Made by a program: the position numbers and the translations under genes. Under the pieces are notes generated by a model. The model did no database searches, had not been told where the DNA came from, and was given only the letters and a program-made list of their open reading frames with translations. From NCBI GenBank assembly GCA_030524585.1, contig JAUNGJ010000024.1:10132-42530 (forward strand): a DNA stretch of 32,399 nucleotides, given 5' to 3'. The stretch is from Eubacteriales bacterium (GTDB lineage Bacteria > Bacillota > Clostridia > Lachnospirales > Lachnospiraceae). This document shows positions 3,464-32,032 of the stretch, in pieces (position 1 is the stretch's first letter; each line of letters opens with the position of its first letter).

Positions 3464-4717
3464 ATGTATATAAAACGTGCAATTGAAGAAACAGTAATGA
3501 AAGTGTCAAAGATGTTTCCAGTATTGCTGGTGACAGGTCCCCGGCAGGTTGGGAAAACAACTCTTCTGCAAAAGCTGGCGGAAAATGAGAGAAGGTATGT
3601 TACTTTGGATGATCCGGACGTCCGTTATCTTGCGAAGCGCGACCCGGCGCTGTTTTTGCAGCGCTATACACCTCCTGTGCTGATTGATGAGATTCAGTAT
3701 GCGACAGAACTGTTACCTTATATTAAGATGCATGCAGATACTGCGAAGCGAAAAGGAGATATTTGGATAACTGGATCACAGGCATTTCAACTAATGAAGA
3801 ATGTAAGTGAAAGCCTTGTCGGACGTGTTGGAATTATTAATCTGCTTGGATTGTCTGATGCAGAAATTTATGAATATAACAGCGAACCATTTTCTACACA
3901 GCCAGAGCGTTTGTTAAAGCGGAGAAATAACGTCAAAGAAAGAGGTATGAATGAGATATTTGTAAGAATATTCAGAGGTTCTATGCCAGAACTTTACGCG
4001 GATGAAAATGTTGATTGGGAAACTTATTACAGATCTTATGTGAATACTTATCTGCAGAGAGATATTCGTGATCTTGCACAGGTTGCGGATGAGATGAGCT
4101 TTTACAATTTTATGACCGTGGTTGCGGCGCATACATCAAAGCCTGTAGTCTATGAAGAATTAGCAAATGCCGCAGATATAACGGCGCCAACCGCAAAGAA
4201 ATGGTTATCTATTCTGGTATCTTCTCATATTATTGCACTGGTGCAGCCTTATTATAATAATGCATTAAAACGAGTAATCAAAATGCCGCTGATGCATATG
4301 CTTGATACCGGGCTTGCCGCTTATTTGCTGAAGTGGGGAAATCCGGAGGCGCTGGAACGGGGAGCAATGTCAGGCGCTTTCTTTGAAAGCTATGTATTTT
4401 CAGAAATATATAAAAGTTATTTGAACTCTGGAATGGAGCCGCCGATTTTTTATTATCGGGATAAAGATCAAAGAGAAATTGATCTGTTAATCTATCAAAA
4501 TGGTTCTGTTTCACCGATTGAGATTAAAAAGGCAGCGTCTCCGGGAAAGACAGCGATTAAGAATTTTAAAGTTTTGGAACCGATCTTGGAGCCTGAAAAG
4601 TTTGGGAATATAAGTGAGTTGAAAGTGAATATTGAGACCGGAAATGTTATCTGCATGGCGCGGGAGTTACTTCCGCTGGATGAAAAGAATTGGTATGTTC
4701 CGGTCTGGATGATTTGA
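3464..4717 (+). CDS. AAA ATPase with DUF4143 C-terminal domain
   Basis: A 417-residue protein. Residues 20-35 hold a Walker A motif (GPRQVGKTT) and 'PVLIDEIQYA' is the Walker B block, followed by sensor-like 'WITGSQAF'. This is the usual start of AAA_14 plus DUF4143 proteins. The C-terminal third has 'REIDLLIYQNG....IEIKKAAS', resembling a PD-(D/E)XK nuclease-like core as found in DUF4143. A winged-helix-like segment lies between ('YEELANAADITAPTAKKWLSIL'). These genes are common, mobile and often solitary in Lachnospiraceae; the cellular role is not established. The RBS GGGAGGGATGAGG precedes the ATG. It ends at a shared terminator, convergent with the operon on the other strand. Confidence 0.9.
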   Translation: MYIKRAIEETVMKVSKMFPVLLVTGPRQVGKTTLLQKLAENERRYVTLDDPDVRYLAKRDPALFLQRYTPPVLIDEIQYATELLPYIKMHADTAKRKGDIWITGSQAFQLMKNVSESLVGRVGIINLLGLSDAEIYEYNSEPFSTQPERLLKRRNNVKERGMNEIFVRIFRGSMPELYADENVDWETYYRSYVNTYLQRDIRDLAQVADEMSFYNFMTVVAAHTSKPVVYEELANAADITAPTAKKWLSILVSSHIIALVQPYYNNALKRVIKMPLMHMLDTGLAAYLLKWGNPEALERGAMSGAFFESYVFSEIYKSYLNSGMEPPIFYYRDKDQREIDLLIYQNGSVSPIEIKKAASPGKTAIKNFKVLEPILEPEKFGNISELKVNIETGNVICMARELLPLDEKNWYVPVWMI

Positions 4718-4724
4718 AAGAAAT

Positions 4725-4760
4725 AAAAGAGAGCTTCTCAAAAGCGGGAAGCTCTCTTTT
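4725..4760. terminator. Bidirectional rho-independent terminator
   Basis: AAAAGAGAGCTTC (4725-4737) pairs exactly with GAAGCTCTCTTTT (4748-4760) around a 10-nt loop, giving A/U tracts on both sides. It sits between the convergent stops of the ATPase (+) and the SDR gene (-), so it can end both transcripts. Confidence 0.9.
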
Positions 4761-4786: not shown

Positions 4787-5560
4787 CTAATTGCAGGTTG
4801 TCCAGCCGCCGTCTGTAGGAAGGACTACACCGTTGATGTATTTTGCTTCGTCTGAGCAGAGGTAAACCATTGCCCATGCGGAGTCTTCCGGCTGTCCTAG
4901 TTCCGGGAATGGAGTTACGGCCTTGAACCATCCGAGGGTTCTCTCGTTCTCGTACAGGTAAGAGGTCTTTGGGGTCCATACAAAGTTTGGCGCCAGACAG
5001 TTGAACCGGATTCCTGTAGTGGGGCTAACCTGTTTTACCATATTCAGCGTACCGTTTTTGATGGCAGCCTTGGACATTGGATAGCCCTGGAAGCCTGAGC
5101 CGTTCCATCCCAGTGCTGTGGAAGAGGTGAAGTTCAAAAAGCATCCGCGCACTTTGTTGTCTACCATGTAACGCAGCACGGTCTGGTAAGAATGAAGCAG
5201 TGCGTCCACGTTGGAATCCAGAACATTGTGCAGAGCTTCGTGGGTAATGGTATCCCAGTCGCCGGTGTTTTCTCCGACGGAGAACAGGGCGGCGCCGTTT
5301 ACACAGATATCTATGGTTCCATAGTTGTCAAGGGCAGTTTTCAGAAGCTTGTCCCAGGTCTCTCGTTTAGAAGCATCACCCACGACAGCGATAGCCTCTC
5401 CGCCTTTTTCTCTGATTTCTGCGCACTTTTCCTCTACATGAGGATCGATATCATTCATAACGATCTTAGCGCCCTCCTGGCAGAAAAGCTCGCATGCCTT
5501 TCCGCAGATTCCTCCATCTGCTCCGGTAATAATAGCTACTTTATTTAACAATCGATTCAT
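4787..5560 (-). CDS. Short-chain dehydrogenase/reductase (BaiA-like class)
   Basis: A 257-residue classical SDR and the last gene of the four-gene minus-strand operon. Visible elements: cofactor loop T12-G-A-D-G-G17-I18-C19, where the last glycine of TGxxxGIG is cysteine; Asp37 at the end of the second strand, which favours NAD(H); the 'VNGAA' variant of NNAG at 87-91; Asn117; and the Ser147/Tyr160/Lys164 catalytic set. The C-terminal 'INGVVLPTDGGW' is the normal family ending. It should oxidise a secondary alcohol or reduce a ketone, and in this context a hydroxyl/keto group on the operon's substrate. RBS AAGGAGAT precedes the ATG; the gap to the upstream NTF2-like gene is 45 bp. Family certain, substrate unknown. 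Confidence 0.92.
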   Translation of the reverse strand: MNRLLNKVAIITGADGGICGKACELFCQEGAKIVMNDIDPHVEEKCAEIREKGGEAIAVVGDASKRETWDKLLKTALDNYGTIDICVNGAALFSVGENTGDWDTITHEALHNVLDSNVDALLHSYQTVLRYMVDNKVRGCFLNFTSSTALGWNGSGFQGYPMSKAAIKNGTLNMVKQVSPTTGIRFNCLAPNFVWTPKTSYLYENERTLGWFKAVTPFPELGQPEDSAWAMVYLCSDEAKYINGVVLPTDGGWTTCN

Positions 5561-5605
5561 AATTATATCTCCTTTCCGTTCATTATCTATATTTGTTTTT
5601 ATAAA

Positions 5606-6133
5606 TTAGTTCTCTTTCTTTCTCATGCAGCGCAGGGAGTTGATCAGTACTCCATAGTCCAGACGCAGAGTTTCGATGCGCCATACGCCGTCCTTACACT
5701 TTAAGAGGTCATCTACATACATTCCGAAGCCGGAGTAATTTTCGCCGTTGTCAGTATAGGTGTGGTAATCGTTCATGCGCGTCAGGAGTTGTGCATGGGT
5801 GTCGTCGATGAAACGTACAATCTGATTGTGTCCGAAATGCATCGGTACCATGTCTCCCTGACCGATGGTAAATTTGACAGAGCCAATCTGTGCCTCGATG
5901 CTTGCAGAGCCTGGATTACCATTCCAGAAGGTACGGAAGCCATGCTCGCCTTCTTCTGTAAATACATCGCGCAGAACGTCATAATCATTTAAGTCATTTC
6001 CCCAGAAATAGCGGGCTTTTACATTGAGGATACGGGGGATTTCTTTCATCTGCTCTTCGGTGTACGGCTTTCCTGCCTCCATGAGAATTTCGTGTGCCAG
6101 TCTTTTTACTTCGTCGCTGTAATTAAGAGTCAT
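5606..6133 (-). CDS. NTF2/SnoaL-like protein, probable BaiE-type dehydratase or isomerase
   Basis: A 175-residue protein of the NTF2/SnoaL/scytalone-dehydratase fold. Tyr42 and Asp47 ('RYFWGND') have the same Tyr-x4-Asp spacing as catalytic Tyr30 and Asp35 of the bile acid 7-alpha-dehydratase BaiE. His99 in 'MHFGH' matches BaiE His83 in a 'MHMGH' context (BaiE recalled from memory, not aligned by program). 'WRIETLRLDYG' is the usual last strand. These residues support acid/base elimination of water or a double-bond shift on a cyclic substrate. The gene lies between the OYE and SDR genes, with gaps of 25 and 45 bp, and has an AAGGAAGG RBS. Fold is confident; dehydratase activity is inferred. 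Confidence 0.85.
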   Translation of the reverse strand: MTLNYSDEVKRLAHEILMEAGKPYTEEQMKEIPRILNVKARYFWGNDLNDYDVLRDVFTEEGEHGFRTFWNGNPGSASIEAQIGSVKFTIGQGDMVPMHFGHNQIVRFIDDTHAQLLTRMNDYHTYTDNGENYSGFGMYVDDLLKCKDGVWRIETLRLDYGVLINSLRCMRKKEN

Positions 6134-6158
6134 AGTGTTTCCTTCCTTTCTGTATATG

Positions 6159-8081
6159 TTATTCTTCTATTTTCTGTACCGCCTCATACGCTTCATTTAC
6201 AGCGCTTAAGATGTTGCGGCACTTGTTACTGTCTCCAATTGTGATAACCTTGCAGATATCCTGGAACTCGTTTCCGACACTGGCGGTAGGGGCGCCGCCC
6301 ATTGCAAGAAGAACTGTGTCACATTCGATTAGGCTCTGACCTTCTGCATTTTCTACAGAAACGCCCTTGCTGTTTACTTCCAGAAGCTTTGTGCTGGTCA
6401 TACAAGTAATGTTTTCAGACTTCAGCATGTCGCGCATCATGGTGTCGTTCATGCGGAATGACGGCTGAGGCATCATCTTGTCTGCCATTTCTACCACGGT
6501 TACCTGATGGCCGTTGTGTGCAAAATGAACTGCGGCCTCTGAGCCTACCTGTCCGCCGCCAATAATGGCAAGACGTTCTCCTAACGGAACCAGATTGCAC
6601 AGAGCATCCTCGCAAGCGTATACATTACTTCTGTCTAGTCCAGGGATGGATCGCGGGCGAACTGTGCTGCTGCCTGCTGCCCAGATCAGCACGTCCGGTG
6701 CGAACTCTGCGATGCTTTCCCGCGTAGCCTCCTTGAAAAGACGAACCGGAATGTCAGCTTTCAGAAGCTGGGTCATGTAATACCTCGGGAGACGCTGTGT
6801 ATCGTGTTTCATATACGGAGCTGTCGCGGCAAGCAGTTTTCCGCCAACCTGGGCGTTTCTGTCCCAAAGCTCTACCTCGTGGCCTGCTTCCTTTGCCAGA
6901 AGTGCTGCCGTACATCCGCCGGGGCCGCTTCCGACTACCAGCACTCTCTTTGCTTCCTGTGCTTTCCTCGGACGGCGCTCAAGCTCATAGCCTGTATAGG
7001 GGTTGACTGCACAGGTAACGTGTACGCCCTTCAGTACGTTACCGATACACCCCTCATTGCAGGAGAGGCATGGACGAATATCTTCCGGACGGCCTTCGGT
7101 TACCTTCTTCGGAAGATCCGGGTCTGCCAGCAGACCGCGTCCGATTACGGCAAAATCGCAGATACCATTCTTTAACGCTGCTTCCGCTTTGGATACATCG
7201 GAAAGCCGTCCATGAGTCAGAACCGGGATGGATACGTGTTCCTTTACAGCCTTTGCAACCTTCAACTGCATGACGGTTTCCTGATAGAAAACCGGAGGCA
7301 TAGCAAGCTGCCATTTTTCATGACATCCGGCATCTACGTGGAGTGCGTCAACGCCCTGCTCTTCCAGATATTTCGCAAGTTCCAATCCTTCTTCCAGCTG
7401 CCGGAAGCCGGGATACGGTACTCCGTGATCAGGGCAGAATTTAACAATCAGAGGGAAATCCTGCCCGCCTTCTTCCTTGACGATGGCAGCCTGCTCCAGA
7501 AGGAAGGTTGCTCTTCCTTTCACATCCCCGCCGTATTTGTCCGTGCGTGTGTTCCATGCAGCCGTCAGGAACTGGTCATTTAAATACCCGCCGTAGGCAT
7601 GCAGTTCACAGGCATCGACACCGGCAGCAACCGCAAGCTTCATAGTTCTTCTTATCTCCGAAAGGAAAATATTGATTTCTTCAATTGTAAGTTCATGGCA
7701 TTTTACATTTGGCGCGTAGAGCCATGCACAGTCTGATGCACTGATCGGCACCGGATACATTTTGGCCGGACCTGCCATGCGTCCGCATCCGGGATGAAGC
7801 TGTATACATACCTTACAGCCTTCGGCGTGGGAACGGTCACACAGCTCCTTAAAGGCTGCAAAATTTTCATCTGTCAGCACCAGAGATGCAGAGGTATCTT
7901 CAAAATAGCCGGTCACCATCATGTTGATCATGATCATTGCGGCGCCGCCTTCTGCGCGCCTCACAAAGTATTCCACCGACTCCTGGTTGATATCCTCAAA
8001 ATGAGGTCCCATCGGAGCGAGGATCATACGGTTTTTTAACTCTAATGTTCCTAGTTTTGCAGAGTTTGTAAGCATTGGCAT
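6159..8081 (-). CDS. NADH:flavin oxidoreductase, Old Yellow Enzyme/2,4-dienoyl-CoA reductase type
   Basis: A 640-residue three-part enzyme. Residues 1-330 are an FMN TIM barrel, with the active-site segment H161-A-Y-G-G-Y166 aligning with the Tyr166 region of FadH. Cys338-x2-Cys341-x3-Cys345-x11-Cys357 is the [4Fe-4S] motif of this family. The rest is a pyridine-nucleotide disulfide oxidoreductase-like half with FAD loop VVGSGPGG (382-389) and NAD loop IIGGGQVGSE (506-515). Length and order match FadH, BaiCD, BaiH and daidzein reductase. It should reduce or oxidise a C=C bond next to a carbonyl, passing NADH electrons via FAD, Fe-S and FMN. RBS AGGAGG precedes the ATG. The precise substrate cannot be read from sequence. 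Confidence 0.95.
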   Translation of the reverse strand: MPMLTNSAKLGTLELKNRMILAPMGPHFEDINQESVEYFVRRAEGGAAMIMINMMVTGYFEDTSASLVLTDENFAAFKELCDRSHAEGCKVCIQLHPGCGRMAGPAKMYPVPISASDCAWLYAPNVKCHELTIEEINIFLSEIRRTMKLAVAAGVDACELHAYGGYLNDQFLTAAWNTRTDKYGGDVKGRATFLLEQAAIVKEEGGQDFPLIVKFCPDHGVPYPGFRQLEEGLELAKYLEEQGVDALHVDAGCHEKWQLAMPPVFYQETVMQLKVAKAVKEHVSIPVLTHGRLSDVSKAEAALKNGICDFAVIGRGLLADPDLPKKVTEGRPEDIRPCLSCNEGCIGNVLKGVHVTCAVNPYTGYELERRPRKAQEAKRVLVVGSGPGGCTAALLAKEAGHEVELWDRNAQVGGKLLAATAPYMKHDTQRLPRYYMTQLLKADIPVRLFKEATRESIAEFAPDVLIWAAGSSTVRPRSIPGLDRSNVYACEDALCNLVPLGERLAIIGGGQVGSEAAVHFAHNGHQVTVVEMADKMMPQPSFRMNDTMMRDMLKSENITCMTSTKLLEVNSKGVSVENAEGQSLIECDTVLLAMGGAPTASVGNEFQDICKVITIGDSNKCRNILSAVNEAYEAVQKIEE

Positions 8082-8132
8082 AATATTACCTCCTAAGTAT
8101 TTTTAATTATTTTATTCGTGTTATCCATGCTG

Positions 8133-9389
8133 CTAAGCAGCGGTCTGGAATGTTTTTCCAGATTTGACAGCCAGAGCTGCAGTTCCTGCCAGAGCAAGAA
8201 ATACGATGACAAATACGATCCACGCCATCGTATAGGAGCCAACCGCTGTACGGATACCAGAGGAAAGCATCGGACCGATCATGCAGCCGCCCATGAAAAA
8301 GGTATTTCCCAATCCGTAGATTCCGCCGAATTCCTTATTGCCGAATACCTTGCTGGTCAGAAGCGGCGGTCCGACAGAGGTTATGCTGGTTCCCAGCGGG
8401 ATGATCAACATACTGGTAAATGCAGCCGCGGCGCCCATTCCCGGTACAAGCAGAAGGATGATCAGTCCTATGGCTCCGAACAGACAGGTAATGGCAATTC
8501 CCTTCTGAATGCCAAGCTTGTCAACCAGCGGGCCGGCAATCAGTTTTCCGATAATCATGGCCAGGCTGGCCAGAGCCATAACCGGGGCGTAATCTAATCC
8601 GTTCTCAATTAAGTAGGTAGGAACCTGTGTAAAGATACCTGCGGCAACGATTCCGCAAAAGATCAGGCAGGCTGCATATAGCCAAAATGCCCCCGTCTTA
8701 ATTGCTTCTGCTTTGGATAAGCCGTCCCATCCGGGGCCGGCAGCTGCAGTCTTCTGCTTTTGCTGATTGTTTTTTCCGGAACGGTAGGGCTCCAGACCCA
8801 TTTCTGCAGGACTCTTTCGTATCAGAAAACACACGACCACAATGGTAACAGCGGTAATGAGAGCAGTTAGCCTGAATCCCGCGCGCCAGCCCTGATTCGC
8901 GATGATTCCGGCTATGAAACCAGAGAACAGCATTCCGCCGATTCCGCTTCCGGTAAAGACGATACTGGTTATCAGTCCCTTTTTATCGATAAACCACTGA
9001 GAAATCAGGAAATTAATCGGGACGTAGGTGATTGCGGAAAGCGTAAAGTTTACTATAAAAAATGTAATATAGAGCTGCCATACTGCTGTGATAGAACTCT
9101 GGGCAAGGAGCGCCAGAGCACTGACAAGCCCGCCAAACAGCATATATAGTCTGGTATTGCCCTTGCTGATCTTTCCTGCCAGTGTCAGGCTGAACAGCAT
9201 ACCTGCAATCGTTGATGTACTGTTTGATATGCTGAATTCCACATAACTACAGCCGAATTCCTCACAGATTGGCATTTGGTAATAAGAGTAAAAACTGCTG
9301 ATAAATGTCATGGGCAGCAAACTGATTAAAAATAGACATCCTACAATGACCCAACCATAAAAAAACTTAGTTTCTTTTGTACGTTTCAA
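8133..9389 (-). CDS. Major facilitator superfamily transporter
   Basis: A 418-residue membrane protein with about 12 hydrophobic segments in two six-helix halves, split by a hydrophilic loop near residues 197-222 ('RSGKNNQQKQK'). 'FFYGWVIVGCLF' at the N-terminus and 'FGGIYGLGNTFFMGG' near the end are typical of the OFA/monocarboxylate branch of the MFS. The start is TTG at 9389, set by a strong GGAGGAGG RBS five bases upstream; the next Met is at residue 27. It is the first gene of the minus-strand operon, 51 bp before the OYE gene, and probably imports the operon's substrate, as BaiG does for bile acids. This role is inferred from position. Confidence 0.9.
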   Translation of the reverse strand: MKRTKETKFFYGWVIVGCLFLISLLPMTFISSFYSYYQMPICEEFGCSYVEFSISNSTSTIAGMLFSLTLAGKISKGNTRLYMLFGGLVSALALLAQSSITAVWQLYITFFIVNFTLSAITYVPINFLISQWFIDKKGLITSIVFTGSGIGGMLFSGFIAGIIANQGWRAGFRLTALITAVTIVVVCFLIRKSPAEMGLEPYRSGKNNQQKQKTAAAGPGWDGLSKAEAIKTGAFWLYAACLIFCGIVAAGIFTQVPTYLIENGLDYAPVMALASLAMIIGKLIAGPLVDKLGIQKGIAITCLFGAIGLIILLLVPGMGAAAAFTSMLIIPLGTSITSVGPPLLTSKVFGNKEFGGIYGLGNTFFMGGCMIGPMLSSGIRTAVGSYTMAWIVFVIVFLALAGTAALAVKSGKTFQTAA

Positions 9390-9713
9390 TAGACCTCCTC
9401 CTTTTCCTTAAAGTAAATCTGACCATCTGTCTGTGCACATTTCGTTTGTCTTTCTTTTGTCAAGCTTACCATGAAAGATGAGCTTGCCACAAATGAACCG
9501 TTCTGCATAATTGTGAACAGCAGGCGTTCATCTTTCCGGAATTGCCTGTTTCCGAGTCAAATTGAATCATGTGAATTCATGAAATTCAAAGGAGGATATC
9601 GGGCATTTTTCATAACGTAATATTGAAAGAGCCGAACCGAATATGTTATTATTAATAAATAATTATTTTTTTAACAAGTTATCGGGATTCTGCAACGATT
9701 GCGGGAGGCAATT
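9390..9713. promoter_or_regulatory. Divergent regulatory region between MFS operon and HTH regulator
   Basis: This 324-bp gap carries no gene. For the regulator (+), TTGAAA (9623-9628) lies 18 bp before TATTAT (9647-9652). For the operon (-), a TTGACA is read on the minus strand at 9463-9458 without a good -10 box, as expected of an activator-dependent promoter. Possible operators are an imperfect palindrome at 9562-9589 (TTGAAT...ATTCAA with an inner TGAATTCA) and 9-bp arms GAAAGATGA (9473-9481) and TCATCTTTC (9528-9536). All assignments are by eye. Confidence 0.5.
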
Positions 9714-11153
9714 ATGACTTTTGGACAAACATTAAGACAACTATTAACGATTAGTGGCGTGAAATCAGCCGCTCTTGCCTCCAGATTGGGGTATGATACT
9801 TCTTATATCAGCCGTTGGATCAGTGATATAAAATTACCGTCACTAAAGAACAATAGTCGGCTGTTTTCTCAAATCGCGGAGGGGATTCTGGAAGAGAGCG
9901 ACAGCTCTGCCAGAGAAGAGCTTCGCCAGACCTTTTGCCGGGATGGATCTGATGCCGAACTGGAACAGGCAATTGAATCTGCCCTTTCTCTTGCTTTTAC
10001 CTGCTCTCGTCCTGCGGTACATCAGCAGGCAGCGATGAGCAGGAATGCTATCTGCATTCCTGATGGAATGTATAAGGATGGGTATGATATCTATATAAAT
10101 GCCATGACCCAGTATGCGCAGGAGACCGGAGACAGGGAGATTCCCTGTATCACTGCGACGCCTCTCAAACCTTATAACAATCAGAATGAAGCGTTCTGGG
10201 GGGCAATTCTATCCTCTCCCCAGATTTTCGGCAAATTGCATATCATCCTGCATCAGCTCATTGATTCCTCCGATTTTTCCGCGAATGTGGACAGCTACTG
10301 TGCTGCGATTTGCACGTTTGCTCATTATCATGAAGGGATTAAATACGAATTTTACGAATATAATTCTGTAGCAGATATTCACTCTGTGCAGTTTATATAT
10401 ATTGCAGACAAACTGTCATATCAGATTATAAAGAATCCGTTTACCGGAATTGTGGAGACTGTCATCTGCAATGATGCTGCAGCTCTGTCAAACCGGTGGT
10501 TCTCCATCTGTAAACAGCTGCAGCTTCTTCCCAAGCTGCTGTCTTATCAGAATTGCAGTTCCAAATATTTCCGGCATTTTCTCTATGATTATGTGATGGG
10601 TGGGGAACTGCGCTATCTGCTGAATATTATGCAGCCGTTTTTTATTACAGACGAGCTTGCGGATGAATTTATCGAACAGTATGTTACGGATGGCAAAGAG
10701 GAGATTAGATCTTTTTATATGTATTTTAACAGTTTGTGCTCTAAGGCAGCTAAAGAAGTGATCATCTTCCGATCAGCTCTTCTGGAATATATCTACAGTG
10801 GGACGATTTTATTTTGCGGCAGGCTTCTTAAGGTCGACAGGGAACACCGGATCAGTCACATGAAGCAGCTTCTGGAAAATATGAAGCAGGAACATTGCCG
10901 GCTGACCATATTAAGTGATGCCAATCCGCTGTTGAATTATAATGATATGGAGATGTCCCTGTATTTGAATAAAAGTAATGGGTTTATGGAGCCCTCCGAC
11001 AACAGCGGACATTATATAGTTCAGATCAGTTCCCGGCTTGCGACAGAGTGCTTTCAGCAATTTTTCTGTCATTTGCAGGAGCTTGGCGGTTCCTATGTGA
11101 TGAAAGGGAAGGAAGCCTGTGATTTCATTGAGAAAGGGCTTGGGCTGATTTGA
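9714..11153 (+). CDS. Large helix-turn-helix (XRE-like) regulator, divergent from the bai-like operon
   Basis: A 479-residue protein. The ATG at 9714 is preferred over the TTG at 9699 because GGGAGG (9703-9708) sits 5 bases before it and inside the longer form. Residues 1-55 hold an HTH: 'FGQTLRQLLTISGVKSAALASRLGYDTSYISRW' then 'SDIKLPS', close to the XRE/Cro type. The remaining 420 or so residues match no family I recognise; they contain few charged repeats and no transmembrane stretch, and could be a ligand-sensing or dimerisation region. Its divergent placement next to the MFS-OYE-NTF2-SDR operon suggests that it controls that operon in response to the transported compound. Regulator class is fairly sure; sign and ligand are unknown. 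Confidence 0.8.
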   Translation: MTFGQTLRQLLTISGVKSAALASRLGYDTSYISRWISDIKLPSLKNNSRLFSQIAEGILEESDSSAREELRQTFCRDGSDAELEQAIESALSLAFTCSRPAVHQQAAMSRNAICIPDGMYKDGYDIYINAMTQYAQETGDREIPCITATPLKPYNNQNEAFWGAILSSPQIFGKLHIILHQLIDSSDFSANVDSYCAAICTFAHYHEGIKYEFYEYNSVADIHSVQFIYIADKLSYQIIKNPFTGIVETVICNDAAALSNRWFSICKQLQLLPKLLSYQNCSSKYFRHFLYDYVMGGELRYLLNIMQPFFITDELADEFIEQYVTDGKEEIRSFYMYFNSLCSKAAKEVIIFRSALLEYIYSGTILFCGRLLKVDREHRISHMKQLLENMKQEHCRLTILSDANPLLNYNDMEMSLYLNKSNGFMEPSDNSGHYIVQISSRLATECFQQFFCHLQELGGSYVMKGKEACDFIEKGLGLI

Positions 11154-11889: not shown

Positions 11890-12166
11890 GAGTATATTCT
11901 ATTAATATGCAGGCTGATAATGGCTATGATGAAGAGGAGTACACGTAAGGATTCCAACAGAGAGGACGGTTCGGCGGCTGGAAGACGGTTCGGGATGAGA
12001 GATGTGGAAGGTAGCTTCGGAGCTGGATAGCTGAACAGTAAGTAAGCTGTCCCGGAGTCGTTCCCGTTATAGAATAAGATGAGTGTTGCAGAGAAGAATT
12101 TTTCTGTAAAATAAAGGTGGTACCGCGATAGACATCGCCCTTTATGGCTATAAAGGGCGTTTTATT
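11890..12166 (+). ncRNA. T-box riboswitch leader, valine-specific
   Basis: The leader has the expected order. The 5' Stem I motif GATGAAGAGGAGTA (about 11929-11942) is followed by the AGAGAG apical element, then a specifier-loop region with GTA at 12011-12013 in the context GAAG-GTA-GCTTCGGAG, a valine codon. Next come the T-box AAAGGTGGTACCGCG (12113-12127) and the terminator CGCCCTTTAT/ATAAAGGGCG (12136-12159) with TTTTATT. Uncharged tRNA-Val (anticodon UAC) should pair with the specifier and the T-box and allow read-through into valS. Start and end are approximate. Confidence 0.93.
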
Positions 12167-20116: not shown

Positions 20117-20428
20117 ATGAAGTATGAAGTGCAGGAGAACTGCCTGACAATCTATTTGCCGGGGGATCTGGATCATCACAACGCCGAGGAAATCAAGCGG
20201 GAGGCAGACCGGCTGATTGAACGGGGACATATTCGCTATGTGATCTTTGATTTTAAGGAGACAGAATTCTGCGACAGTTCCGGCATAGGAGTAATTATGG
20301 GAAGATATAAAAAGGTGTGCATGTTCGGCGGGGAGGTCTGGGCGGCTCACACTAATGAGCGGATCAAAAAGATACTGAAGATGTCCGGAGCGACTAAGAT
20401 TATGCAGATTTATGAGGAGGAAAATTAA
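20117..20428 (+). CDS. spoIIAA: Anti-sigma F factor antagonist SpoIIAA
   Basis: A 103-residue STAS-domain protein. 'LPGDLDHHNAEEIKREAD' and 'EFCDSSGIGVIMGRYK' match SpoIIAA closely; Ser54, the first serine of DSS, corresponds to Ser58 of B. subtilis, which SpoIIAB phosphorylates. The unphosphorylated form frees sigma F from SpoIIAB in the forespore. The ATG at 20117 is chosen over in-frame upstream starts because those would run through the terminator and the preceding gene. It is the first gene of the spoIIA operon, and the spoIIAB start follows one base after its stop. Confidence 0.97.
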   Translation: MKYEVQENCLTIYLPGDLDHHNAEEIKREADRLIERGHIRYVIFDFKETEFCDSSGIGVIMGRYKKVCMFGGEVWAAHTNERIKKILKMSGATKIMQIYEEEN

Positions 20429-20429
20429 G

Positions 20430-20900
20430 ATGAGAGAGATTGTTAACGGCATGACCAATGAGATGAAGCTGGAATTTGACAGCCGCTCCGCCAACGAGGC
20501 ATTTGCAAGAGTGACGGTTGCGTCCTTTATGACACAGCTAAACCCAACTCTGGAAGAGGTCTCGGATGTGAAAACAGCAGTTTCCGAGGCGGTGACCAAT
20601 GCGATTATTCACGGCTATGAAAATCATGTGAATAAGATCCGGATTTTTGCCGGAATTGAGGGAAGAACGCTGCGGCTGGAGATATCGGACCGGGGCGTTG
20701 GGATTCCGGACGTAAAGAAGGCTATGGAGCCGCTGTTTACCACAAAACCGGAGATGGAACGGTCCGGCATGGGCTTTTCCTTTATGGAAGCATTTATGGA
20801 CGAGGTGACGGTTGAGTCTGAACCCGGAAAGGGAACGATTGTCAGAATGAAGAAGGTTATCGGGAAGGGCAGGGAATTATGGACCACACAATCGCTCTGA
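20430..20900 (+). CDS. spoIIAB: Anti-sigma F factor / serine kinase SpoIIAB
   Basis: A 156-residue GHKL ATPase. The N box reads 'VSEAVTNAIIHGYENH', the G1 box 'ISDRGVGIPD', and the lid/G2 region 'MERSGMGFSFMEAFMDEV'. It binds sigma F with ATP and phosphorylates SpoIIAA. The start at 20430 is set by GAGGAGG (20414-20420) lying within the end of spoIIAA; the ATG at 20412 would include this RBS and is less likely. The 3' end overlaps sigF by 22 bp, a sign of translational coupling that is usual for this operon. Confidence 0.97.
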   Translation: MREIVNGMTNEMKLEFDSRSANEAFARVTVASFMTQLNPTLEEVSDVKTAVSEAVTNAIIHGYENHVNKIRIFAGIEGRTLRLEISDRGVGIPDVKKAMEPLFTTKPEMERSGMGFSFMEAFMDEVTVESEPGKGTIVRMKKVIGKGRELWTTQSL

Positions 20901-21598
20901 TTCAGAAGTCTCACGAAGGGGATGAGCGGGCGAAGGCACAGCTGGTGGAAGAAAATGTGGGGCTGGTCTGGTGTGTCGTGAAGCGCTTCTATAACCGGGG
21001 AGCAGAGCCGGAGGATCTGTTTCAGATCGGCAGTATCGGTCTTCTGAAAGCGATTGATAAATTTGATCTGAGCTATGATGTGAAATTCAGTACCTACGCT
21101 GTGCCGATGATATCTGGGGAAATCAAGCGTTTTCTGCGGGATGACGGGATGATCAAGGTGAGTCGGTCTCTGAAGGAGATGGCCTACAAGGCATTTGGAT
21201 GTCAGGAAGAGCTCAGAAAGAAATGGGGCAGGGAGCCTACGCTTGGGGAAATTGCCGAGAAGCTGGCGGTAGACAAGGAAGAGCTGGCCGCGGCTCTTGA
21301 AGCAAATTCGGAGGTGGAGTCTCTGCACAAAACCATATACCAGAAGGACGGACATGAGATTCAGCTGATGGACAGGCTGGAAGAAAAGGAAGAACGGGAG
21401 GAGCAGGTGCTGAATCATATGCTTCTGGGAGAGCTTCTGAAGCATCTGGAAAAGGAAGAACGCCAGCTGATTTATCTGAGATATTTTGGAAATAAAACCC
21501 AGGCGGAGGTTGGCCGGCTGATGGGGATTTCCCAGGTTCAGGTCTCAAGAACCGAAAAACGAATCCTAAAGCGTATGCGGGAAGCTGTATATTTTTAA
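20879..21598 (+). CDS. sigF: RNA polymerase sigma-F factor (forespore)
   Basis: A 239-residue sigma-70 family protein. Region 2 includes 'AEPEDLFQIGSIGLLKAIDKFD' and 'FSTYAVPMISGEIKRFLRDDG'. Region 3 is 'REPTLGEIAEKLAVDKEEL' and region 4 ends 'TQAEVGRLMGISQVQVSRTEKRILKRM', an HTH. Order and gene context (spoIIAA-spoIIAB-sigF) identify it as SpoIIAC/sigma F, the first forespore-specific sigma factor. It overlaps spoIIAB by 22 bp. Its last codons contain the -35-like GTATA of a forespore-type promoter that points at the spoVA genes. Confidence 0.97.
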   Translation: MDHTIALIQKSHEGDERAKAQLVEENVGLVWCVVKRFYNRGAEPEDLFQIGSIGLLKAIDKFDLSYDVKFSTYAVPMISGEIKRFLRDDGMIKVSRSLKEMAYKAFGCQEELRKKWGREPTLGEIAEKLAVDKEELAAALEANSEVESLHKTIYQKDGHEIQLMDRLEEKEEREEQVLNHMLLGELLKHLEKEERQLIYLRYFGNKTQAEVGRLMGISQVQVSRTEKRILKRMREAVYF

Positions 21599-21615
21599 AG
21601 ATAACAGCCATACTA
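21587..21615 (+). promoter_or_regulatory. Putative sigma-G/F forespore promoter before spoVA genes
   Basis: GTATA (21587-21591), 17 bp, then CATACTA (21609-21615). This fits the known sigma-G/sigma-F pattern of a GNATR-type -35 and a CATNNTA-type -10. It lies at the end of sigF and reads into the 53-residue ORF and spoVAA. The same two boxes and spacing recur before spoVAD. Confidence 0.65.
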
Positions 21616-21642
21616 ACCGTAGACAGAGAGGAGGAAACCAAC

Positions 21643-21804
21643 ATGGAAGAGGCCAGAAGAAAATTAAGAGCATGTCTGATCCTTGTGGTGACCGCTGCAG
21701 TGATTATGGGCATGGTGTATTACTTTCATGATGTGCAGGGAGGTACGCAGGTCAGTGACGGCACGCTGATTACCATATCGGAGGGCAGTATGCTATGGCG
21801 GTAG
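21643..21804 (+). CDS. 53-residue single-span membrane protein between sigF and spoVAA
   Basis: The ATG at 21643 has an ideal RBS (GAGAGGAGG, nine bases upstream). The product has a short basic start ('MEEARRKLRA'), one hydrophobic helix ('CLILVVTAAVIMGMVYYF') and about 25 residues outside ending 'ISEGSMLWR'. The stop lies 10 bp inside spoVAA, so translation is probably coupled. It would be made in the forespore if the promoter at 21587-21615 is real. I do not recognise a named family. A role with SpoVA proteins is inferred from location only. Confidence 0.65.
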   Translation: MEEARRKLRACLILVVTAAVIMGMVYYFHDVQGGTQVSDGTLITISEGSMLWR

Positions 21805-22481
21805 TAAACGAGACCATATACATCAAAGGAGATTCTAATGTGGAGGTGACAAAGCCAAATGTCACCCTTGGCGATCTGGTACAGATGGAATGCGCCAATC
21901 CTGTGGTAGTACCCAAACTGAAAACAGTAAAGGTTTTGAAATTTTCCGAATCGTCCAGTAAACATTCCCATCATGGAAACAGCCGGACGGTGGTTTCGGT
22001 TCTGAAGCTGATAGAGTGCATCCATGAAAAATACCCGGGAATTAATGTGCAGAACCTGGGGGAGCAGGATATTATTGTAACCTATGAAAATCAGCAGACA
22101 GCGAGTCAGTTTGTTCACTGGCTGAAAATCGCAGTTGTAGTACTAATATCATTTGCCGGTTCTGCATTTTCTATTATGGCATTTAACAATGATGTGGATA
22201 CCAGTAAATTATTTGACCAGATCTATGAGCTGCTGATGGGCAGACCATCGGATGGTTTCACTCTTCTTGAGGTTACCTATAGTATCGGAATATTGATCGG
22301 AATCCTGGTATTCTTTAATCATTTCGGCAAAAAGCGTTTCTCAGTGGACCCGACGCCAATGGAAGTAGAAATGCGTCTGTACGAGAACGATATTCAGACT
22401 ACTCTGGTAGAGAACTATTCCAGAAAGGGGAAAGAGATTGATGTGGGCACGACAGATATTGTTAATAATCATCGGTCTTAG
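21795..22481 (+). CDS. spoVAA: Stage V sporulation protein AA
   Basis: A 228-residue protein with a soluble N-terminal region of about 110 residues ('VTLGDLVQMECANP', 'NLGEQDIIVTYENQ') followed by two hydrophobic segments ('WLKIAVVVLISFAGSAFSIM' and 'YSIGILIGILVFF'). This domain order and the position after sigF match SpoVAA. SpoVA proteins form the dipicolinic acid transport apparatus of the developing spore inner membrane. The start overlaps the preceding small ORF by 10 bp; the end overlaps spoVAB by 41 bp. Confidence 0.93.
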   Translation: MAVVNETIYIKGDSNVEVTKPNVTLGDLVQMECANPVVVPKLKTVKVLKFSESSSKHSHHGNSRTVVSVLKLIECIHEKYPGINVQNLGEQDIIVTYENQQTASQFVHWLKIAVVVLISFAGSAFSIMAFNNDVDTSKLFDQIYELLMGRPSDGFTLLEVTYSIGILIGILVFFNHFGKKRFSVDPTPMEVEMRLYENDIQTTLVENYSRKGKEIDVGTTDIVNNHRS

Positions 22482-22863
22482 CTCTGGGATGATCGTGGCC
22501 GGAGGGCTGTTTTCTTTTATCTCTGGGCTTGGCGTTGTGTCCGATCTGGCGGACCGGACACATACCGGAGAACATGTAATGCTTTATGAGGATGCGATTA
22601 CGTTAGGAGGAATCCTTGGCAATGCTTTCTGGATTTTTCAGGTTTCTATTCCGAAAGCCGGGTGGCTTTTGCCGGTATTCGGTCTGCTGGCAGGTATATT
22701 TACAGGCTGCTGGGCGATGGCGCTGGCAGAAATGCTGGATGTGTTTCCAATATTTGTGAGACGGACGAAAGTGCTCCGGTGTATTCCGTGGGCCATTCTG
22801 GGAACGGCAATCGGAAAATGCCTTGGATCATTTTTATTTTTTTACCAGAGATGGGGCAGATAA
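22441..22863 (+). CDS. spoVAB: Stage V sporulation protein AB
   Basis: A 140-residue membrane protein with about four hydrophobic segments and the 'ISGLGVVSDLADRTHT' block characteristic of SpoVAB. The ATG at 22441 is used; a TTG directly before it is in frame but less likely. It overlaps the 3' end of spoVAA and ends 12 bp before spoVAC. It is assumed to act with SpoVAA in the SpoVA complex at the inner forespore membrane. Confidence 0.92.
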   Translation: MWARQILLIIIGLSSGMIVAGGLFSFISGLGVVSDLADRTHTGEHVMLYEDAITLGGILGNAFWIFQVSIPKAGWLLPVFGLLAGIFTGCWAMALAEMLDVFPIFVRRTKVLRCIPWAILGTAIGKCLGSFLFFYQRWGR

Positions 22864-22875
22864 GGAGGAAAGAAA

Positions 22876-23340
22876 ATGGCTGCAATGAGTGAAGAGCAGA
22901 AGAAAGCATATCAGGACTATGTGAAACAGAAGACGCCGGTGCATAATTTGCCAATGAACATGGCGAAGGCTTTTGTGACCGGAGGCGTCATCTGCGTCAT
23001 CGGGCAGGGAATTTTGAACTACTGTGAGAAGCTGGGATTGGATAAGGATATCAGCGCCGGGTGGTGCGCTATGATACTGGTATTTTTATCAGCGCTGTTT
23101 ACCGGACTTAACATCTACCCGAGGATTGCCAAATGGGGCGGCGCCGGAGCGCTGGTTCCGATTACAGGATTTGCCAATTCTGTAACGGCTCCTGCGATTG
23201 AGTATAAGAAGGAAGGACAGGTTATGGGAATTGGCTGTAAGATATTTACTATTGCAGGACCTGTGATTTTGTACGGAATCTTTACCAGCTGGGTGCTGGG
23301 ACTAATTTACTGGGTGCTTACAAAGGTTGGAGTGATGTGA
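22876..23340 (+). CDS. spoVAC: Stage V sporulation protein AC
   Basis: A 154-residue membrane protein with four hydrophobic spans. 'KTPVHNLPMNMAKAFVTGGVICVIGQ' and 'KWGGAGALVPITGFANSVTAPAIEYKKEGQVMGIG' are highly typical of SpoVAC, which in B. subtilis acts as a mechanosensitive channel for dipicolinic acid. RBS AAGGAGG precedes the ATG. In most genomes I know of, spoVAD follows directly; here the next gene is an unrelated HAD phosphatase, and spoVAD appears 7.7 kb downstream. Confidence 0.95.
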   Translation: MAAMSEEQKKAYQDYVKQKTPVHNLPMNMAKAFVTGGVICVIGQGILNYCEKLGLDKDISAGWCAMILVFLSALFTGLNIYPRIAKWGGAGALVPITGFANSVTAPAIEYKKEGQVMGIGCKIFTIAGPVILYGIFTSWVLGLIYWVLTKVGVM

Positions 23341-23351
23341 ATCACTCCTTT
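23329..23351 (+). terminator. Weak hairpin at the end of spoVAC
   Basis: GGAGTGAT (23329-23336) and ATCACTCC (23341-23348) form an 8-bp stem with a four-base loop that includes the spoVAC stop codon; only TTT follows. It could end or slow the spoVA transcript here. Confidence 0.45.
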
Positions 23352-23400
23352 ACCGGAGGAGATTTTGATTGGATTTGATCAACATTTTACCCTATAGGGA

Positions 23401-23429
23401 TTGATTCTTTTTTCAAAGACGTATAAGAT
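23401..23429 (+). promoter_or_regulatory. Putative sigma-A promoter of the HAD phosphatase gene
   Basis: TTGATT (23401-23406), 17 bp, TAAGAT (23424-23429), about 35 bp before the start codon. It is a moderate match and suggests vegetative expression, separate from spoVAC. Confidence 0.45.
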
Positions 23430-23466
23430 ACTATGGTAAACATTTGAAAAGAGGAGTAGGGATGAA

Positions 23467-24240
23467 ATGGAACAATTAAGAAGCAAGAAGGGCTTTATTT
23501 GCGATATGGACGGCGTGATTTATCATGGGAACCAGCTGCTGGACGGCGTGAAGGAATTTGTGGAATGGCTGTATAGGGAGAATAAGCAGTTCCTTTTTCT
23601 TACTAATGCCAGCCACAGATCACCAAAGGAGCTGCAGAAGAAGCTGGCAAGGCTGGGAGTCGATATCGGGGAAGAACATTTTTATACAAGCGCCCAGGCA
23701 ACAGCCAAGTTCCTTCAGAGTCAGAATCCAGGGTGCAGCGCCTACGTGATCGGGGAACATGGCCTGTATAATGCCCTATATGATGCAGGAATTACCATCA
23801 ATGATGTAGACCCGGAATATGTAGTTGTCGGAGAGACGGAAGCCTATGGCTACGAACATATTCAGAAGGCTATGAATCTGGTGAATAATGGGGCGAAGCT
23901 GATTGCTACCAATACCGATATTACAGGGCCGATCGAAGGCGGGATTGCCCCGGCGTGCCGGGCTTTTGTTGCGCCGATCGAAGCGACGACCGGAAAACAG
24001 GCATATTATGTAGGGAAACCAAATCCACTGATGATGCGGACCGGGCTTCAGCTTCTGGGAGTACATTCTTCGGAAGCAGCTATGATCGGAGACCGGATGG
24101 ATACGGATATTGTTGCAGGAATCGAGACGGGATTGGATACCGCGCTGGTCTTAAGCGGAGTATCTACAAGGGAAACCATAGAAGAATTTCCCTATCGTCC
24201 GCGGCTGATTTTAAAAGGCGTTGGGGATATTCCGGGCTAG
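23467..24240 (+). CDS. HAD-IIA family phosphatase (NagD-like)
   Basis: A 257-residue HAD-superfamily hydrolase. The nucleophile motif is 'FICDMDGVIYHG' (Asp13, Asp15); motif II 'FLTNASHRSPKEL' is the NagD/AraL form with Asn after Thr; motif IV is 'MIGDRMDTDIVAGIETG'. The large C2-type cap lies between motifs II and III, which places it in HAD-IIA (NagD, AraL, p-nitrophenyl phosphatase). Such enzymes hydrolyse sugar or nucleotide monophosphates. RBS GAGGAGTAGGG. The gene has its own promoter and terminator, so it is probably monocistronic. Confidence 0.92.
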   Translation: MEQLRSKKGFICDMDGVIYHGNQLLDGVKEFVEWLYRENKQFLFLTNASHRSPKELQKKLARLGVDIGEEHFYTSAQATAKFLQSQNPGCSAYVIGEHGLYNALYDAGITINDVDPEYVVVGETEAYGYEHIQKAMNLVNNGAKLIATNTDITGPIEGGIAPACRAFVAPIEATTGKQAYYVGKPNPLMMRTGLQLLGVHSSEAAMIGDRMDTDIVAGIETGLDTALVLSGVSTRETIEEFPYRPRLILKGVGDIPG

Positions 24241-24277
24241 AAGCCTGTTTCATAGCGAAGTGATAGAAAAAAGATGA

Positions 24278-24307
24278 GAGCTGTCCTGAAAATGGGACAG
24301 CTCTTTT
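24278..24307 (+). terminator. Rho-independent terminator after HAD gene
   Basis: GAGCTGTCC (24278-24286) pairs with GGACAGCTC (24295-24303) around eight bases, then TTTT. Confidence 0.85.
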
Positions 24308-24380
24308 GTTATCCTTACTATATCAAAAGGAACACAGATATCGCGTGTTGAGAATAAAAGATATAGAAAGGGTGAACGTT

Positions 24381-24485
24381 ATGAAAGGTTATGTAGTACA
24401 CGACGGATATATGGGATATGTGAATGGAAGATATATGTTATTCTCCTGTGAAGAGGATTATCGGGATTATATGAGTGAAGAGTAA
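24381..24485 (+). CDS. 34-residue tyrosine-rich hypothetical protein
   Basis: ATG at 24381, with GAAAGGGTGA about six bases upstream, and TAA at 24483-24485. The product has six tyrosines in 34 residues and an acidic end, with parallel 'DGYMGYV' and 'NGRYMLF' strand-like segments, suggesting a tiny beta-hairpin followed by an acidic helix ('EEDYRDYMSEE'). It is bounded by terminators on both sides, so it is its own unit. Function unknown. Confidence 0.55.
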   Translation: MKGYVVHDGYMGYVNGRYMLFSCEEDYRDYMSEE

Positions 24486-24487
24486 AA

Positions 24488-24527
24488 GAAATGTCAGGTC
24501 TCAGGGTTATGGAGGCCTGACATTTTT
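24488..24527. terminator. Bidirectional terminator between small ORF and regulator
   Basis: ATGTCAGGTCTC (24491-24502) pairs with GAGGCCTGACAT (24512-24523) with one G-U pair; A- and T-runs flank it. It lies between convergent stops. Confidence 0.8.
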
Positions 24528-24528
24528 A

Positions 24529-25215
24529 TTACTTTATGTTTCGCAGATGAAGATATACGGTATTTTTGGATATGTTTAACTCCTCTGCAACCAATTGTAC
24601 GGCATCCTTAAAATGAAATACGCCTTTGTCGTGCAGTGTCTGAATGATAGCTTTATTCTTGTTGGCGGATGAAACAGAGTTATCTGCGTATATCTGCTCC
24701 CGCGCCGTATTGACCAGATGATGAATTAAGTCCGTAGAATTTTCACTGAATTCTTCGGCAACGACCTGTGCCGGGGCAGCTACCCTGTCTTCCATGGCCG
24801 AGTTGTCCCGGCGGTGAGAAGTAAAGTCATCCAGAATTGCTGAAAACGGTACATCAAGATAGAAATTAATACACAGCAGGCCAATGACTTTGTTCTGTTC
24901 ACCGCGGATCGCAATGGTAGTTGATTTCATTGGCTTGCCGTCACGGTTTGTAGTGAAATATGTAATGCTGTCATTGGAACTGTTTTTCTTAATGGATTCT
25001 AACATGTCCAGAGCCATATTTGTGATAGGAGCGCCGATTTTTCTTCCGGTATAATGTCCGTTCTGGATAGCAATGACTGAATGGTCATAGGAACCAAGAT
25101 TATGCAGGATGATTTCATATCCGGTTCCCAGATATTCGCCCAATCCATCGATCATCTGTCTATAGGATTCTAAAATTAAAAGGTCTGTTTCCGTTAATGT
25201 GATTTCCGATTTCAT
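24529..25215 (-). CDS. YheO/DauR-like transcriptional regulator (PAS-like plus HTH)
   Basis: A 228-residue protein from the ATG at 25215, preferred over an upstream in-frame start because GGGGGAA precedes it. Residues 8-115 form the YheO/PAS-like domain ('LESYRQMIDGLGEYLGTGYEIILHNL', 'GRKIGAPITNMAL', 'TTIAIRGEQNKVIGLLCINF'). The C-terminal 45 residues hold an HTH ('DAVQLVAEELNISKNTVYLHLRNI'). Relatives such as DauR control D-amino-acid use genes. It is divergent from ridA-PLP enzyme-nhaC, and an 11-bp-arm palindrome lies between, so it probably controls that operon and perhaps itself. Ligand unknown. Confidence 0.9.
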   Translation of the reverse strand: MKSEITLTETDLLILESYRQMIDGLGEYLGTGYEIILHNLGSYDHSVIAIQNGHYTGRKIGAPITNMALDMLESIKKNSSNDSITYFTTNRDGKPMKSTTIAIRGEQNKVIGLLCINFYLDVPFSAILDDFTSHRRDNSAMEDRVAAPAQVVAEEFSENSTDLIHHLVNTAREQIYADNSVSSANKNKAIIQTLHDKGVFHFKDAVQLVAEELNISKNTVYLHLRNIK

Positions 25216-25298
25216 AATATTCCCCCTGTGCTTCGTATTACTTACCCATAGTAGCATATTCAAAAAGGTTCTGTAAATAAATTCCCAGGAGAAAAAAC

Positions 25299-25321
25299 TA
25301 TTTTTCATTCAATGAAAAATA
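25299..25321. promoter_or_regulatory. Perfect palindrome, probable operator
   Basis: TATTTTTCATT (25299-25309), a central C, then AATGAAAAATA (25311-25321), exact reverse complements. It ends one base before the -35 box of the ridA promoter and lies upstream of the divergent regulator, the place expected for that regulator's binding site. Confidence 0.65.
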
Positions 25322-25322
25322 A

Positions 25323-25351
25323 TTGACAAATATTAAACTATTTTATATAAT
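25323..25351 (+). promoter_or_regulatory. Consensus sigma-A promoter of the ridA operon
   Basis: TTGACA (25323-25328), exactly 17 bp, TATAAT (25346-25351): a full match to the vegetative consensus in both boxes. Such a strong promoter next to an operator suggests repression rather than activation. Confidence 0.85.
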
Positions 25352-25403
25352 AAAATAAATTACAGTTAATAAAATAAATTTAATTCTATAGGAGGTGTAA
25401 AAA

Positions 25404-25778
25404 ATGAAAAAAATTAACACAGACAAGGCTCCTGCCGCAATCGGACCGTATTCACAGGCTATTGAACATGAGGGGATGATTTATGTATCCGGTCAGCTCC
25501 CGATTGATCCGGCAACCGGAACATTTCCGGAGGGCGGCGTGGCAGAATTGACCAGACAGTCAATGAATAATATTTCAGCGATTCTTGAGGCTGCCGGAAG
25601 CGGCATGGATAAGGTTGTAAAGACGACGATTTTTGTTCAGGATCTGGGAGATTTTGGCGTAGTTAATGAAGCGTATGCAGCATTCTTTGGCGAAACTGCA
25701 CCGGCAAGAGCATGTGTACAGGTAGCGGCATTGCCGAAAGGAGCAAAACTGGAAATCGAAGCGATTGCGTACAAGTAG
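25404..25778 (+). CDS. ridA: RidA family enamine/imine deaminase
   Basis: A 124-residue YjgF/YER057c/UK114 protein of normal length. 'APAAIGPYSQAI', 'YVSGQLPIDPATG', 'TTIFVQDLGDFGVVNEAYAAFF' and 'PARACVQVAALPKGAKLEIEAIA' are all family blocks; Arg102 matches the substrate carboxylate-binding arginine. RidA hydrolyses reactive 2-aminoacrylate-type enamines released by PLP enzymes. It is the first gene of the operon (RBS AGGAGGTG) and is followed after 27 bp by a PLP enzyme gene, so the pairing is functional sense: the PLP enzyme may release an enamine. Confidence 0.95.
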   Translation: MKKINTDKAPAAIGPYSQAIEHEGMIYVSGQLPIDPATGTFPEGGVAELTRQSMNNISAILEAAGSGMDKVVKTTIFVQDLGDFGVVNEAYAAFFGETAPARACVQVAALPKGAKLEIEAIAYK

Positions 25779-25805
25779 AATTCCCCAAAGATAGGAGGAA
25801 AAAGA

Positions 25806-27056: not shown

Positions 27057-27080
27057 AGAGAATGAGAAGGAGGGAATGAT

Positions 27081-28535: not shown

Positions 28536-28562
28536 TATCTGTGATAAATATATGAAATAAAG

Positions 28563-28600
28563 AAAAGTCAGGCCTCTGGATATAGAGGCTTGGCTTTTTT
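28563..28600 (+). terminator. Rho-independent terminator after nhaC-type gene
   Basis: AAGTCAGGCCTC (28565-28576) pairs with GAGGCTTGGCTT (28585-28596) allowing two G-U pairs, followed by TTTT. It closes the ridA operon. Confidence 0.8.
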
Positions 28601-28646
28601 CAGATTGTATTTTAATATATAAGAGAGAAATGCGAGGTGAGACATT

Positions 28647-29618: not shown

Positions 29619-29631
29619 AGGATATATACGT

Positions 29632-30321: not shown

Positions 30322-30336
30322 ATTGGAGGAACCCAT

Positions 30337-30903: not shown

Positions 30904-30934
30904 GTATACCGTGTTATCATCAGAAGCTTCACAG

Positions 30935-30963
30935 GTATAAAATACGAAAAATCTTCCATACTA
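30935..30963 (+). promoter_or_regulatory. Putative sigma-G/F forespore promoter before spoVAD
   Basis: GTATA (30935-30939), 17 bp, CATACTA (30957-30963), identical in boxes and spacing to the site before the spoVAA block. It lies 42 bp before the spoVAD start codon. Confidence 0.7.
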
Positions 30964-31005
30964 ATCCACAGGAAGCAATCAAAGCTGGTATGGAAGGTGA
31001 GATCT

Positions 31006-32019: not shown

Positions 32020-32032
32020 GGGGGAATCGGTT

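Follow-up and report, generated by a model that had tools for sequence, protein, structure and literature searches.

Gene organization and regulatory elements of the locus

The window, i.e., the whole 32,399-nucleotide stretch analyzed here from a contig of a Lachnospiraceae draft genome, carries a genuine four-gene operon on the minus strand and a divergently oriented regulator gene. In the direction of transcription, the operon encodes an MFS transporter (positions 8133–9389, TTG start), which is a predicted importer, an OYE/Fe-S flavoenzyme (6159–8081), a predicted ene-reductase, a SnoaL_4/NTF2-fold protein (5606–6133), a predicted dehydratase, and an SDR (4787–5560), predicted to be a NAD-dependent hydroxysteroid-type dehydrogenase. 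The respective Pfam matches are MFS_1, Oxidored_FMN together with Pyr_redox_2, SnoaL_4 (PF13577) and PF13561. The gaps between the genes measure 51, 25 and 45 nt, and a purine-rich site can be read from the sequence before the start of each, in agreement with the tight packing and the strong ribosome-binding sites described in an earlier, sequence-only reading of this DNA. The spacing suggests that the four genes are co-transcribed. The single end proposed in the same reading corresponds to a hairpin with a 13-bp stem and a U-rich end on the 3' side of the SDR gene (4725–4760, minus strand; −20 kcal/mol, z −3.07, with 1 of 200 shuffled sequences equally good), although this hairpin is not among the matches of a simple terminator pattern scan. 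Its position is 3' of the convergent ATPase gene as well, and it is probably a terminator common to both transcription units.

The divergent gene (REG, 9699–11153, plus strand) has 484 codons, confirming that the operon is accompanied by a large regulator of its own. Alignments identify the inner ATG at 9714 as the conserved start, and this is probably the true one. The protein has no match in Pfam or NCBIfam. Its architecture combines an XRE-type HTH (residues ~4–104) with two lobes of a likely PLD fold (~114–281 and ~277–478); the archaeal regulators TrmB/TrmBL2 are among the closest known systems, a PLD-like sensor lobe being the possible common feature. The divergent promoter region contains the conserved site TTGTGGCAAG (9483–9492, minus strand). 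Its consensus, TTGYGGCAAG, is matched at 9 or more of the 10 positions in seven of eight regulator-bearing regions versus none of seven control regions, with one locus (L016) excluded from the count as a near copy of another (L015). We consider this site a putative REG operator. Distant relatives of the regulator occur in 12 of 391 genomes of the class, with scores of 67 bits or less, and none of the nine that were inspected adjoins a SnoaL gene or a full-length OYE gene. Two of the distant relatives adjoin genes which, by eye, resemble subunits of 2-hydroxyacyl-CoA dehydratase.

Relationships of the encoded proteins to the bai enzymes

The SnoaL protein belongs to the SnoaL_4 family (53.2 bits against PF13577, cut-off 24). 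It has the NTF2 fold and the Tyr-Asp-His site of NTF2-fold dehydratases, such as BaiE and scytalone dehydratase, and its conserved residues include Y42, D47, H99, D122 and R157; a dehydratase function is predicted. Eight invariant residues are common to the SnoaL proteins of the module (the operon and regulator together, here and in relatives), BaiI and BaiE. The protein had been read as BaiE-type, but this assignment was dropped since both tree and scores put it nearer to BaiI. Specifically, the window protein shares 25% identity (38 bits) with a BaiE of the same genus versus 29% (75.5 bits) with the BaiI of the same genome as that BaiE. Overall, identity to BaiI is 26–30%, compared to 23–26% for two BaiE proteins, and no BaiE orthologue is present. 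In the phylogeny, BaiE forms a separate clade (support 100/100), whereas the SnoaL proteins of the module, including the one from genome G1112 described below, form a clade (96/94) that is sister to the BaiI sequences (98/96) and lies outside the BaiI clade. The gene contexts also differ: the BaiI gene follows baiH, whereas the module gene stands next to an OYE gene of its own and, at the majority of loci, also near SDR and regulator genes. BaiI is given in the available text of PMC10382948 as the sole bai operon protein without an assigned function, and has been hypothesized to be a 7beta-dehydratase (available portions of PMC10382948 and PMC12175502). BaiI is annotated as ketosteroid isomerase-like, and a SnoaL protein acting as a double-bond isomerase would let the module isomerize and reduce an unsaturated steroid with the hydroxyl group kept. 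We regard this alternative as improbable.

The flavoenzyme has the FMN barrel, the four Fe-S cysteines (CX2CX3CX11C at residues 338–357) and the dinucleotide domain of the FadH/BaiCD type of OYE/Fe-S flavoenzymes, as well as the family signature HxYGGYL. The proposal that it is a BaiCD/BaiH ene-reductase did not hold. It scores 369 bits against the BaiCD model NF041087 (cut-off 825), and it branches separately from both BaiCD and BaiH, the latter forming a clade of its own (100/100), in trees covering 15 of the host's 18 OYE paralogues. A bilirubin reductase identity was likewise rejected, the long bilirubin reductase model NF045599 giving 417.8 bits with a cut-off of 750. The SDR displays the motifs TGADGGICG (at 12) and YPMSK (at 160) and an Asp after beta-2. 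For the MFS transporter, previously likened to the BaiG importer, the bile salt MFS model NF038246 remains the best named model, but the score of 130.5 bits is far below the cut-off of 400; the L-lactate MFS model gives 119.5 bits (cut-off 320). None of the scanned operon proteins reaches the cut-off of any named model marking a bai enzyme.

Conservation of the module and its association with bai genes

When the SnoaL alignment was used as a profile against 84,980 species genomes, 13 named loci were obtained, in which the SnoaL gene has an OYE gene as a neighbor in 11, an SDR gene in nine, the divergent regulator in eight and an MFS gene in three. The operon is thus kept as a unit, with varying gene order. 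Some counts are bounded by the available sequence: L016 stops directly after the SnoaL gene, which limits the SDR count there, and the regulator can hardly be assessed at L018, which starts inside the OYE gene, or at L027, with only 1.2 kb upstream. Two arrangements recur, MFS-OYE-SnoaL-SDR in the window, L015 and L017 (and in L016 up to its contig end) and SnoaL-SDR-OYE in L019, L022–L024, L026 and L027. L025 retains only the SnoaL-OYE pair; at L020 and L021, OYE, SDR and regulator are all missing from beside the SnoaL gene. At an E-value of 1e-10, no gene is common to the flanks of the window and those of L015 or L017. Indirect matching of genomes by identical length of the longest contig links the same components: SnoaL and OYE have 14 in common (shifted controls 0–2), OYE and REG have 8 (controls 0–1), both with the OYE list being the best 120 of 833, and SnoaL and REG have 6 (shifted controls 0–1). 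The module is rare. Among 299 genomes of the window's family, profile scores identify it only in the window's own genome, two further matches being of the BaiI and BaiE types, and in the family of genome G716 it is found in 8 of 400 genomes at an E-value of 1e-40 or lower, seven of these being already known carriers.

In genome G1112, one contig (C2) encodes, in order, barB, barA, baiB, baiCD, a second baiCD, baiE, two baiA-like SDRs, baiF, a third SDR, ~2.4 kb matching none of the references used, baiH and baiG. Approximately 60 nt past baiG, on the same strand, lies a SnoaL gene with 44% identity to that of the window, directly followed by an OYE gene (57%); a GC-rich hairpin is located between baiG and this pair. 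Beyond the OYE gene, the contig extends for 209 nt. In G717, a bai set and the SnoaL-OYE pair of the module are found on one contig, 24 kb apart, and G718, the genome of L026, which represents Firmicutes CAG:103, contains, in addition to the module, baiH, baiCD, baiE and a BaiI-type gene. The BaiE cluster of Firmicutes CAG:103 is reported, in the accessible text of PMC9426597, as the most abundant one in human gut metagenomes. Out of 15 carriers of the module, three encode a BaiE scoring at least 320 bits, carriers G714–G716 encode a BaiE-like protein of 128–142 bits without a surrounding bai operon, and nine, including the window's genome, have no BaiE match apart from the module's own SnoaL. 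In 400 genomes of one family, where related genomes are not independent, the overlap of module and BaiE exceeds chance for BaiE proper (P = 0.007) and when BaiE-like proteins are included (P = 1.6e-7). Because the SnoaL tree makes BaiI the sister and the gene order of G1112 joins the pair to a bai cluster, the tie to the bai genes is stronger than analogy; judged from these sequences, it is one of descent.

L020 and L021 represent a distinct, exported branch. A MerR-type gene is followed by a SnoaL gene whose product carries a twin-arginine signal and a lipobox, and then by an exported FAD_binding_2 flavoprotein. The L020 flavoprotein matches flavocytochrome c3 fumarate reductase (9.6e-36) and urocanate reductase (9.3e-27), with the proteins of the two loci scoring 211 and 218 bits, both below the flavocytochrome c cut-off of 285. 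A Tat-like start is present in 5 of 81 SnoaL homologues; in addition, P0058 has a lipobox without the RR and P0011 has a plain hydrophobic start. The exported SnoaL proteins form a clade (98/80) within the module family in a tree built without P0055, P0056, P0072 and P0074 and without homologues of up to 150 residues. As CoA esters should not occur extracellularly, these two loci argue for free rather than CoA-bound substrates.

Predicted pathway, its alternatives and known counterparts

The bai operon of the Clostridium scindens type likewise combines an MFS transporter, OYE/Fe-S flavoenzymes, a SnoaL_4 protein and SDRs in an oxidize-eliminate-reduce logic. The module differs in having a single OYE, no baiB or baiF, no orthologues of BaiE, BaiCD and BaiH, and an XRE/PLD-like regulator instead of barA/barB. 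The earlier remark that BaiB and BaiF are missing from the window is corroborated, as no CoA ligase or CoA transferase was found among the 31 ORFs scanned of the 82 listed, the remainder being mostly overlapping shadow ORFs. In the host draft genome (2.8 Mb, 91.8% complete), CoA_transf_3 is absent, matches to BaiB are partial only (28–32%), and neither bai genes nor a bile salt hydrolase were found; four genomes of the same genus (G001, G004, G007 and G010) do carry bai genes, with loci L077 and L012 among the evidence. A canonical bai operon was ruled out by the failed orthology tests for BaiE, BaiCD and BaiH. A divergent version of the ordinary pathway, in which bile acyl-CoA would undergo 7alpha-dehydroxylation and genes at other sites would supply the CoA steps, would account for the enzyme types, which are those of the bai core. 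However, the lack of these orthologues, the absence of CoA_transf_3 and the partial BaiB matches in the host speak against it, as do carriers such as G718 with true bai genes besides the module, making this version highly improbable.

Our preferred reading, which we give about an even chance, is that the five genes form a self-contained, CoA-free module, drawn from a common stock with BaiI, for dehydroxylating a compound that resembles a steroid or bile acid. We infer that the MFS transporter would import the compound and that the SDR would oxidize an alcohol to a ketone. The Tyr-Asp-His site of the SnoaL protein would then eliminate the hydroxyl group beta (or vinylogous) to the ketone, the flavoenzyme would reduce the new C=C bond with electrons from NAD(P)H, and the SDR may re-reduce the ketone at the end. 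The net result would be the loss of one hydroxyl group and an electron sink for the anaerobe. The divergent HTH/PLD-like regulator would respond to the compound through the TTGYGGCAAG site. What survives of the sequence-only reading is thus a bai-like set without CoA genes, with its own regulator and a reductive or dehydrating pathway for a steroid-like enone; the identities as BaiE, BaiCD/BaiH and a bile salt MFS do not.

The main rival to a steroid-like substrate is a plant compound from the diet, such as a flavonoid, terpenoid, cyclitol or other hydroxy-enone, dehydroxylated or reduced by the same chemistry, with only ancestry in common with the bai genes. We rate it as less probable but a serious contender. 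Goat reticulum and water deer rectum appear as labels of MAGs among the named relatives. With 19 Oxidored_FMN genes, the host ranks first of 61 related genomes (the next have 15, 13 and 11, some being fragments), and some of the host's paralogues are clustered with SDR and MFS genes. The host's lack of bai genes, bile salt hydrolase and CoA_transf_3, the pairing of the exported branch with a fumarate/urocanate reductase-like flavoprotein and a regulator unrelated to barA point in the same direction. By contrast, the SnoaL-OYE pair that ends the bai cluster of G1112, the sister relationship to BaiI and the co-occurrence with bai genes favor the steroid-like substrate.

A more far-reaching form of the dehydroxylation reading appears somewhat unlikely at present. 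According to it, uncultured Clostridia would possess a second route for dehydroxylating hydroxysteroids, independent of CoA, in which a BaiI-sister dehydratase, a dedicated ene-reductase and an SDR act on free bile acids or steroid hormones at the 7beta, 12, 16 or another position without a known gut gene. The route would be intracellular and, in the derived branch, extracytoplasmic, with a Tat lipoprotein and a flavocytochrome c-like reductase. We know of no gene for bacterial 16-dehydroxylation of progestins, and a literature search on this activity found nothing. If the module does act on free steroids or bile acids, it would constitute a second gut dehydroxylation route, missed by searches for baiE or CoA genes; such a route would also be present in Firmicutes CAG:103, and kinship would give the function of BaiI. 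In any case, a stand-alone operon with a BaiI sister offers a small system for testing the function of BaiI apart from the other bai enzymes.

A search of the literature by title found none describing this MFS/OYE/SnoaL/SDR operon. Aerobic degraders use NTF2-like dehydratases on steroid rings, as described for Hsh2 and SteC in the available text of PMC12175502 and PMC13101464, respectively. Hsh2 of Sphingobium, a BaiE homologue and 7alpha-hydroxysteroid dehydratase, is likened to the module SnoaL by description, as an NTF2-like dehydratase in a bile salt pathway, in this case of aerobic degradation. The assays of this pathway used 3-keto bile salts lacking CoA (PMC12175502, same portions), and we read this as suggesting that Hsh2 itself accepts free substrates. 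The gut 5beta- and delta6-3-ketosteroid reductases are, in the accessible part of PMC12238238, OYE/Fe-S flavoenzymes and kin of BaiCD/BaiH. Residues Asn166, Tyr167 and Ser171 are reported there for ci2350; compared by description, the motif of the module flavoenzyme at this place is HxYGGYL.

Bai-type genes and OYE paralogues

Paired genes for an OYE and a BaiI-type SnoaL protein are located outside the bai operon in genome G010 (L011:8312-10899), where the OYE scores at the BaiCD-equivalog level (974 bits versus a cut-off of 825). The same pairing outside the bai operon is found in genome G007. Stand-alone BaiE-like proteins (38-41% to BaiE) are encoded at loci L103, L104 and L105 of genomes G714-G716, with no bai genes neighbouring the BaiE-like gene at any of the three. 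Locus L106 encodes a further BaiE-like protein; two SDRs that resemble BaiA and an OYE that resembles BaiH are encoded close by. The window's own genome, a 2.8-Mb draft, contains 19 Oxidored_FMN genes (e.g., loci L068-L076), the highest count among 61 relatives; several of them are clustered with SDR and MFS genes (L069, L072), and the L070 region carries four in a row.

Relatives of the SnoaL protein and the regulator

At two loci (L020:9863-12042 and L021:4260-6632), a Tat-lipoprotein SnoaL is encoded beside a flavoprotein that is exported and flavocytochrome-c-like; a gene for a MerR-type regulator accompanies them. The SnoaL protein and the flavoprotein may form an extracytoplasmic dehydratase-reductase pair. 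One homologue of the module SnoaL (P0022, 65%) is filed under an unexpected host, Paenibacillus polymyxa, a label that is possibly wrong. Distant relatives of the module regulator occur in other Clostridia (L059, L060-L067); the regulator would then belong to a broader family in which an HTH is combined with PLD-like lobes. Two of them adjoin genes resembling 2-hydroxyacyl-CoA dehydratase subunits.

Other features of the window

The features listed here are on the plus strand. An AAA_14/DUF4143 ATPase gene (3464-4717) is convergent with the operon, a hairpin region being common to both. A T-box leader (RF00230, 124.8 bits; 11917-12145) lies upstream of a valyl-tRNA synthetase gene. Sporulation genes (20412-32389) encode an anti-sigma-factor-type kinase, a sigma-70 factor, SpoVAA, SpoVAB and SpoVAC, followed, after approximately 7 kb of other genes, by SpoVAD and SpoVAE.
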